A DNA stretch of 34,282 nucleotides from Candidatus Woesearchaeota archaeon (GTDB taxonomy: Archaea; Nanobdellota; Nanobdellia; Woesearchaeales; ARS49): NCBI GenBank assembly GCA_003599055.1, contig QZIM01000017.1:1-34282 (forward strand), written 5' to 3'. Each line of letters begins with the position of its first letter. Position 1 is the stretch's first letter. This document shows positions 3,853 to 5,352 of this stretch, one piece after another. The notes beneath the pieces are model-generated. The model saw only the letters and a list, made by a program, of their open reading frames with translations, was not told the DNA's origin and did not search any database. A program made the position numbers and the translations under genes.

Positions 3853-3863
3853 ACCTTTATAAA
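3853..3863 (+). promoter_or_regulatory. promoter of the L7Ae-EF-2 operon
   Basis: ACC plus TTTATAAA (3856-3863) is the best TATA box in the window. Transcription should begin near 3885-3888, leaving a leader of about 55 nt before the L7Ae ATG. Most other genes here have no leader. Confidence 0.75.
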
Positions 3864-3883
3864 GGGGCACTTGTGCCGTGTTT

Positions 3884-3916
3884 CTTACCAATGAACCCAT
3901 ACGTGGGTGAGGGAGA
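3884..3916 (+). promoter_or_regulatory. predicted kink-turn in the L7Ae mRNA leader
   Basis: The RNA can fold as a canonical kink-turn. The C-stem is CC (3888-3889) with GG (3911-3912), the bulge is AAU (3890-3892), tandem sheared G-A pairs come from GA 3893-3894 and GA 3909-3910, and the NC-stem is ACCCA (3895-3899) with UGGGU (3904-3908), capped by a UACG tetraloop. UCUU 3883-3886 could extend the C-stem with GAGA 3913-3916 around a bulged A if transcription starts early enough. L7Ae is the archaeal kink-turn binding protein, and autoregulation through its own leader has been reported in Sulfolobus, so feedback control is likely here. A rival hairpin, GGAGA 3912-3916 with UCUCC 3921-3925, would compete with the C-stem. 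Confidence 0.6.
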
Positions 3917-3942
3917 TTCTTCTCCTTGGAGGCAATAATAAA

Positions 3943-4269
3943 ATGGCAGATGATGCAGCACAGCGTGCACTTGAGGCAATTGAAGTCGCGAAGAACACCG
4001 GTAAGGTGAAGCGCGGTATTAACGAAGTGACGAAGGCGCTTGAGCGGGGAACCGCAAAGTTGGTCGCGTTCGCAAAGGATGTGCAGCCGGCAGAATTGAC
4101 CGTGCACTTGCCGCTTTTGGCAAAAGAAAAGGGCGTTCCGTGTGTTCAGGTGAACAGCAAGGAAGAGCTCGGTGTTGCAGCAGGTATTGGCGCGCCGACG
4201 AGCGCGGTTGCGGTTATTGCCGAGGGTGATGCAAAGAAAGTTATTGCGGACTTGAAGTCGGCAGAGTAA
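3943..4269 (+). CDS. rpl7ae: ribosomal protein L7Ae (eL8), kink-turn binding protein
   Basis: This 108-residue protein is slightly shorter than typical archaeal L7Ae (about 118-125). The RNA-binding signature [18 protein letters not shown] (N27, E28, K31) and the later loop [12 protein letters not shown] are intact. L7Ae binds kink-turns in 23S rRNA, box C/D and H/ACA guide RNAs and RNase P RNA. The start is ATG 3943, with GGAGG at 3928-3932 as ribosome-binding site. An in-frame upstream start would lie inside the leader structure. It is first in the L7Ae-S28e-L24e-NDK-EF-2 operon, an order widely kept in archaea, although IF-2 rather than EF-2 often follows NDK. Confidence 0.95.
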
Positions 4270-4273
4270 GAAA

Positions 4274-4597
4274 ATGGCAGAGCCGAAGAAGAAAATGGAA
4301 GAGGTCTCGCAAAAGCAGGACCGAAGGGAGCAAAAGCAGCAGGCAAAGCAGGATTCGTCCGCAGTTCGTTTTAGCCCGGCTGTTCCTGCGCGCGTTGAGG
4401 AAGTTATCGGAAGGACCGGTATGCGTGGCGAGGCGATTCAGGTGCGCTGCCGCATTCTTGACGGCCGTGACAAGGACAAGGTGATGCGAAGGAACGTGAA
4501 GGGTCCTGTGCAAAAGGATGACATTTTGATGATGCGTGAGACTGAAATCGAGGCTCGCCCGCTCAGTGGTACGGGCGGCCGTGGCGGAGGGAGTTAA
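4274..4597 (+). CDS. rps28e: ribosomal protein S28e (eS28) with N-terminal extension
   Basis: This is a 107-residue protein. The S28e core occupies residues about 37-98: [20 protein letters not shown], the [20 protein letters not shown] segment and the near-invariant end [12 protein letters not shown]. The family is usually about 70 residues. Here there is a charged Lys/Gln/Glu-rich N-terminal extension of about 36 residues and a glycine-rich tail. S28e is a small-subunit protein of the head/platform near the mRNA exit. It starts 4 nt after the L7Ae stop. Confidence 0.93.
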
Positions 4598-4783
4598 ATG
4601 GCGCGTTGCACGTTTTGCAAGCATATTCTGGAGCACGGTACGGGCACGATGTACGTCAAGACGGACGGCACGGTGTTTCATTTTTGCTCGATGAAGTGCG
4701 AGAAGAACCAGCTCAAGCTCGGGCGCGTCCCACGGTACACGCGCTGGACGAAGTCGTTTGAGAAGGGCGGGGCGAAGAAATGA
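4598..4783 (+). CDS. rpl24e: ribosomal protein L24e (eL24)
   Basis: This 61-residue zinc-ribbon ribosomal protein has the metal ligands C4 and C7 (CTFC) and C30 and C34 (CSMKC). The conserved RYTRWTKSFEK tail fits archaeal L24e. It is a large-subunit protein. The start codon follows the S28e stop directly, and its stop overlaps the NDK start as ATGA, consistent with translational coupling. Confidence 0.95.
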   Translation: MARCTFCKHILEHGTGTMYVKTDGTVFHFCSMKCEKNQLKLGRVPRYTRWTKSFEKGGAKK

Positions 4784-5352
4784 TTGAGCGGACGCTCGTT
4801 TTGCTCAAGCCGGATGCGGTTCAGCGCGCCTTGGTCGGCGAGATTGTTTCTCGTTTTGAGCGCACGGGATTCAAGGTTGTTGCCTTGAAACTGTGCTATG
4901 CTTCAAAGGAGACTGCGGGGCAGCACTATGCGGATGACCAGGCGTGGCTGAAGAGTGTTGGTGAAAAGACGAAGAAGTCGTATGAGGCTAAGGGCATCAG
5001 CGTGAAGGATGATGCGCTCACGATTGGCAACCGTATTCGCCAGCAGTTGATGGACTTTATCAGTATGTCGCCTATTGTTGCGGTTGTGCTTGAGGGTCAC
5101 GACGTGATTGGCAAGGTGCGCATTATGTGCGGTGATACTGCGCCGAACAAGAGCGCGCCGGGCACGATTCGCGGTGATTTTGCGTTTGACAGTTACGGGC
5201 TTGCGGACACGTCCGGCCGTCCGATTCAGAACTTGATTCACGCATCGGACAGTGTGGAGTCTGCAAAGCGCGAGATTGCGATTTGGTTTAAGGAGTCTGA
5301 GATTCACCCGTATCAGCGGGTGGATGAGGCCTTGCTGTATCGTAAGATGTAA
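4780..5352 (+). CDS. ndk: nucleoside-diphosphate kinase with insertion
   Basis: It transfers the gamma-phosphate of ATP to NDPs through a phosphohistidine. The phosphorylated histidine is H154 in NLIHASDSVESAKREI, and the N-terminal TLVLLKPDAVQR and VLEGHDVIGKVR motifs are intact. At 190 residues it is longer than the usual 135-155 because of an insert of about 35-40 residues (about 51-88, including KTKKSYEAKG) before the helix leading to MSPIVAVVLEG. Similar inserts occur in some archaeal NDKs (my recollection). Translation is coupled to L24e by ATGA. Confidence 0.93.
   Translation: MIERTLVLLKPDAVQRALVGEIVSRFERTGFKVVALKLCYASKETAGQHYADDQAWLKSVGEKTKKSYEAKGISVKDDALTIGNRIRQQLMDFISMSPIVAVVLEGHDVIGKVRIMCGDTAPNKSAPGTIRGDFAFDSYGLADTSGRPIQNLIHASDSVESAKREIAIWFKESEIHPYQRVDEALLYRKM

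Follow-up and report, generated by a model that had tools for sequence, protein, structure and literature searches.

The L7Ae locus and its leader

The stretch of DNA analysed here, referred to as the window, is the 34,282-nt contig QZIM01000017.1 of a Candidatus Woesearchaeota archaeon (assembly GCA_003599055.1), and our subject is the leader of its gene for the kink-turn protein L7Ae (eL8), in which a kink-turn and an overlapping hairpin, P2, lie between a TATA-like box and the Shine-Dalgarno (SD) sequence. The open reading frame matches Pfam PF01248 with 94.6 bits and has an L7Ae as its best match in the PDB (E = 1e-29); L7Ae chains in the PDB match over residues 4–104, with a 12-residue segment aligning to GTNETTKAVERG. 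The leader and the gene comprise the following features:

3856–3863, + strand: TATA-box-like sequence TTTATAAA, from the sequence and from spacing that matches that of relatives
3888–3912, + strand: kink-turn, corresponding to the outer kink-turn of a tandem element found across the order, from the sequence and comparison with relatives
3910–3927, + strand: alternative hairpin P2, 3910–3916 paired with 3921–3927 around a UUCU loop, from the minimum-energy fold and its retention in relatives
3928–3932, + strand: SD sequence GGAGG directly 3′ of P2, from the sequence and an accessibility model
3943–4269, + strand: L7Ae (eL8) gene, 108 residues, from Pfam PF01248 and the PDB match

An initial annotation of this DNA had proposed that the L7Ae leader holds all of the canonical parts of a kink-turn, and direct reading of 3888–3912, CC[AAU]GA-ACCCA-UACG-UGGGU-GA-GG, finds every one of them in place. 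A canonical C-stem (C3888–C3889 with G3911–G3912) is followed by a 3-nt bulge (A3890, A3891, U3892) and by tandem G·A and A·G pairs (G3893 and A3894 with G3909 and A3910), which lead into a noncanonical NC-stem of 5 bp (3895–3899/3904–3908) closed by a UACG loop (3900–3903). The third pair of the C-stem is an A·G mismatch, leaving two pairs and a possible fourth. The first T of the TATA-like box lies 32 nt from the C-stem, from which a transcript start near 3885–3888 is a reasonable estimate, and the 3′ end of the kink-turn lies 30 nt from the L7Ae start codon. The identity of the gene and the fixed TATA-to-C-stem spacing, with the start estimated in this way, place the kink-turn in the transcribed leader of L7Ae.

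The hairpin proposed in the same annotation to compete with the kink-turn next to the ribosome-binding site is real and slightly longer than the GGAGA/UCUCC originally described: A3910–A3916 pair with U3921–U3927 in a 7-bp helix that is part of the minimum-energy fold. Because this helix consumes A3910, G3911, and G3912 of the kink-turn, the two folds are mutually exclusive. P2 occupies the interval between the kink-turn and the SD, which lies 15 nt 3′ of the kink-turn.

Two further observations concern the same region. A perfect inverted repeat, GGCACTTGTGCC, lies at 3866–3877, in the stretch that separates the TATA box from the probable transcription start; it is not present in the sibling leader L004 and is a possible operator or chance. 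An in-frame GTG at 3907–3909, within the 3′ strand of the kink-turn and twelve codons upstream of the L7Ae ATG, may be taken by automatic annotation as the L7Ae start.

Taken alone, the window kink-turn is suggestive only, because geometry of equal quality occurs nine times on the + strand of the window (roughly 3 expected from a first-order Markov model) and the folding z-score of the leader against shuffles is only −1.44. The chance rate of such a geometry is roughly 0.7–2% per 80-nt leader.

A tandem kink-turn in relatives

L7Ae was located in 265 of 288 genomes of the window's order (Woesearchaeales), to which named Woesearchaeota metagenome-assembled genomes (MAGs) were added, giving 169 unique L7Ae leaders from the order. 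In 136 of these (about 80%), the leader parses as two kink-turns nested on a single stem, CC[NRU]GA-NN-[NAU]GA-stem-loop-stem-GA-NN-GA-GG; 117 non-redundant tandem leaders were used for detailed counts. The bulge letters played no part in choosing leaders, and position L3 is nevertheless U in both bulges of 134 of the 136 (in the non-redundant set, 115/117 for the outer and 117/117 for the inner bulge), with L2 a purine in the outer bulge (115/117) and A in the inner one (114/117). The G·A pairs, the loss of which in relatives had been named as a check on the kink-turn, are kept, the outer 3′ GA being intact in 115/117. The pair joining the two kink-turns is likewise kept in 115/117, mostly as U-A, U-G, A-U, or C-G, and many leaders have UGAUGA...CUGA as their inner kink-turn. 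This conservation in relatives excludes chance as the source of the kink-turn.

The position of the element is constrained on its promoter side, the distance from the first T of the TATA box to the first C of the C-stem being 29–34 nt for most of the 106 leaders that have a TATA box. On the other side, the distance from the GG to the start codon has a median of 47 nt across the order. In four leaders (L044, L053, L064, and L160) the tandem kink-turn lies 100–200 nt upstream of the start codon.

In terms of stem pairing, the covariation analysis of related L7Ae leaders suggested in the initial annotation shows that the kink-turn stems covary. In 25 leaders of equal length, 90.2% of the cells in the stem are paired. 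Double changes number 43, compared with 11.7 in shuffles, and the covariation score is 0.58, compared with 0.19 in shuffles and ≤0.16 in slid registers. The NC-stem pairs show several pair types, and the CC/GG of the C-stem is nearly invariant. Beyond it, pair −3 is kept in 83 leaders (58 expected by independence) and pair −4 in 78 (57 expected), and covariation ends at pair −5, with 48 kept and 51 expected; this puts the end of the helix some two nucleotides upstream of the CC. As this end coincides with the TATA spacing, the RNA of the order's leaders very probably starts directly upstream of the CC, which bears on the other refuting condition named in the initial annotation, a start downstream of 3890. 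That annotation had also suspected that the C-stem near the predicted start may be only 2 bp; the C-stem is indeed short, because it appears to form the 5′ end of the RNA, and this is conserved. The window has its two pairs with the possible fourth. Own C-stem partners pair better than partners swapped between species (z = 6.0; 5.6 on 46 diverse leaders).

The window itself does not carry the two kink-turns on one stem with the short, usually 2-pair spacer; only the outer one is present, and the inner kink-turn with its stem is replaced by a plain 5-bp hairpin. The complete tandem is found in its sibling L004, whose protein is 92% identical. What the window retains is the TATA spacing, the CC, the outer bulge and outer G·A pairs, the GG, P2, UUCU, and the SD. 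The initial description of a leader with a single kink-turn therefore holds for the window, but leaders of the order usually have a double kink-turn, and only the outer half of it is left in the window. A similar outer-only form is seen in L018, and L022, L024, and L026 appear to keep the inner kink-turn only; from the existence of both forms, one kink-turn seems to suffice.

The exact tandem pattern is found in 156 of the 288 genomes, nearly always once, whereas a reversed control pattern gave four matches. For 87 pattern matches L7Ae coordinates were listed, and 82 of these share the strand of L7Ae and lie ≤350 nt upstream of it; the five remaining matches are comparable with the four control matches and give no sign of other regulon members. 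The window's own genome was included in the pattern search. It has no fibrillarin match, although 57 of the order's 59 good genomes have one, and this absence is probably a gap in an 88.7% complete MAG.

In the rest of the class (Nanobdellia), 20 of 51 leaders fit CC[NRU]GA...GAGG, 19 of them non-tandem. Outside the order, the GAGG is commonly the SD itself, as in UUAAACC[AAU]GA-UAG-GA-GGUUUAA-AUG (L204, L211), and such leaders with the SD in the C-stem represent the simple, already known arrangement. A related tandem, in which the outer bulge has 4 nt and the C-stem contains the SD, is seen in four leaders (L231, L237, L240, and L252) from one other lineage of the class. These distributions suggest that the C-stem GAGG is the ancestral SD position in the window's order, that the working SD has moved downstream, and that P2 links the two. 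Among the 51 class leaders, the strict tandem occurs only in L192 (G331:C32:9062-9379), where a Woesearchaeota-type L7Ae with a tandem leader is found in a genome of another order that has a second L7Ae at G331:C16; L192 is either a contaminating contig or a transfer.

An alternative hairpin that competes for the C-stem

The competing hairpin is also a property of the order and not of the window alone. The 5′ strand of P2 begins at the kink-turn GAGG and uses both C-stem Gs in 104 of the 117 leaders, a typical form being GGUAAC...UUCU...GUUACC. Own P2 partners exceed swapped-species partners with z = 15.8 (11.8 without the GG), and the signal survives pruning to 46 diverse leaders (z = 8.9) and to 12 (z = 5.2), which makes shared ancestry an unlikely cause. 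A UUCU 9–12 nt after the start of the GAGG in most leaders is present in 103/117 (23 expected); in the window it lies at 3917–3920, within the hairpin at 3910–3927 that competes for the C-stem GG. That the two folds exclude each other and that both are supported by comparison is the signature of a switch.

Two more specific pairings were considered and rejected. An attenuator in which the P2 3′ strand co-evolves specifically with the SD is unsupported (own vs swapped z = −2.8) and remains as an effect of the energy model only. The second, between a conserved AUUCU and GAAU in the 3′ strand of the kink-turn, shows no covariation, as judged by eye.

A candidate OFF switch for L7Ae synthesis

The consequence of the two folds for the SD was modelled in 116 leaders by comparing SD openness with the kink-turn and GG locked to that with only the 5′ part locked. 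Mean openness is 0.37 in the former and 0.55 in the latter; locking the kink-turn and GG lowers it in 71 leaders and raises it in 9 (p = 5e-15), and in the window the modelled value falls from 0.71 to 0.26. When the interval between kink-turn and SD is shuffled, the effect is mostly lost (−0.178 vs −0.029). The modelled closure of the SD supports repression when L7Ae is bound.

We therefore favour, with a probability of roughly 0.7, the reading that the leader works as a translational OFF switch, sensing L7Ae protein and controlling L7Ae synthesis; that L7Ae in one way or another turns down its own synthesis through the leader kink-turn is very probable. When free L7Ae is scarce, P2 would hold the 3′ strand of the kink-turn, GAGG, and the adjoining 3′ SD would be open. 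L7Ae in excess of its ribosomal RNA and small ribonucleoprotein sites would bind the kink-turn at the extreme 5′ end, and the bound kink-turn would capture the same GG in its C-stem. P2 would then be lost or shortened, its pyrimidine-rich 3′ strand would come free, and access to the SD would decrease, lowering L7Ae translation. Translation of the genes downstream would perhaps be lowered too; they are probably co-transcribed with L7Ae, judging from their tight spacing, and EF-2 follows them:

4274–4597, + strand: S28e, from Pfam
4598–4783, + strand: L24e, from Pfam
4780–5352, + strand: NDK, from Pfam

In most of the order, the two stacked kink-turns would offer two potential L7Ae sites, of which the window species has the outer one only. 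It is conceivable, though on balance doubtful, that two L7Ae molecules on kink-turns sharing a 2-pair spacer there give a steeper, cooperative response than single-kink-turn leaders do and toggle the conserved UUCU-loop hairpin that would control ribosome access.

Several observations weigh against the OFF switch. In the model of the window, base pairs to coding sequence contribute to the occlusion, and 4 bp of P2 remain. SD occlusion is hard to picture where the element sits 100–200 nt from the start codon, and the switch model does not account for the conserved UUCU of P2. The covariation of the C-stem weakens on the most strongly pruned sets and is not significant on the 12 diverse leaders. 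There is no species-specific co-evolution of the P2 3′ strand with the SD, in a comparison of low power as both are near-constant, and SD occlusion is thus argued from energy modelling.

The most serious alternative is autoregulation without a switch, in which the L7Ae-bound 5′ kink-turn blocks 30S loading or hides the SD by bulk and P2 is an independent stabilizing hairpin. This arrangement would agree with known leaders, where the SD is in or beside the kink-turn (PMC6298567), and with 20 of the 51 leaders from the class, almost all belonging to other orders (e.g. L204, L211), where the 3′ GAGG of the kink-turn is the SD. In the window's order, however, the SD usually lies well outside the kink-turn, as the 47-nt median indicates, and competition of P2 for the same GG in 104/117 leaders is unexpected for an independent hairpin; we consider this explanation unlikely. 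An action of the kink-turn on mRNA stability or processing, through 5′-end protection or RNase access, could be reconciled with an element that lies at the very 5′ end, keeps a constant spacing to the TATA box and, in some leaders, is 100–200 nt away from the start codon, but is improbable, as the known precedents act on translation (PMC5539422, PMC6298567) and the modelled SD effect is a consistent one that is mostly gone when the interval is shuffled. That the window kink-turn is a non-functional chance resemblance, as the nine occurrences of such geometry on the + strand and the absence of the relatives' inner kink-turn (possibly a sign of decay) might suggest, is scarcely credible when promoter spacing, C-stem, G·A pairs, L3 = U, P2, UUCU, and SD are all kept and the inner part has been swapped for a different 5-bp helix, unlike decay.

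Comparison with known systems

Feedback through a kink-turn in the L7Ae leader has been shown in Sulfolobus acidocaldarius, with reporter support for other archaeal leaders, in a study that aligned 121 archaea and tested several leaders (Daume 2017, PMC5539422). The claim that the window extends this feedback beyond Sulfolobus to a DPANN-type archaeon thus stands as a new occurrence, although reaching beyond Sulfolobus is not new in itself; N. equitans is the sole Nanoarchaeota-type archaeon named in the main text of that study, as one without an SD. The leaders described there resemble those of the order in having a kink-turn in the l7ae 5′ untranslated region with a 3-nt bulge, tandem G·A pairs, and expected repression by L7Ae. 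They have a single kink-turn with the SD in or beside it, whereas leaders of the order combine a tandem of two with a competing hairpin and have their SD further 3′. As the SD of the window is not in or immediately beside the kink-turn, the usual position in described leaders, we call the leader a variant. Its autoregulation by L7Ae would be a further instance of a mechanism that is already known.

What appears to be new is the tandem architecture seen across the order, together with its alternative hairpin. Rfam gave no match in the window, nor in 20 relatives at E ≤ 0.1, and no description of a tandem or double kink-turn in L7Ae leaders was found in the open-licence literature, supplementary alignments excepted, so that an earlier description is possible. 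The S15, eL15, and L4 leaders (Eckert and Weinberg 2020, PMC7247131) are likewise covariation-supported cis-regulatory leaders of archaeal ribosomal proteins but have other structures and ligands, and the text of that paper includes no L7Ae leader among its 20 new motifs. The comparative evidence for L7Ae feedback in a large DPANN order is strong; the element would supply a new RNA family with which hundreds of uncultured genomes could be annotated and would offer a natural protein-driven switch with both folds readable from covariation, and it makes testable both the binding of two L7Ae to kink-turns two pairs apart and cooperative feedback.

The closest structural comparison is the l7ae leader of Archaeoglobus fulgidus, for which a crystal structure with L7Ae and probing are available (Huang 2019, PMC6298567). 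The L3 = U and purine L2 of the order's leaders match the bulge of those known L7Ae leaders that have GAU there (PMC6298567), and the A. fulgidus leader shares with the window a 3b:3n pair of A:U and the logic of an OFF switch. Without L7Ae, most of the A. fulgidus RNA is single-stranded, and its SD lies in the C-helix, whereas the order has a defined, conserved alternative hairpin. The UGAUGA...CUGA of many inner kink-turns recalls box C/D kink-turns (UGAUGA/CUGA); those, however, are separated by guide sequences, whereas the two kink-turns of the order share a 2-pair spacer within an mRNA leader.
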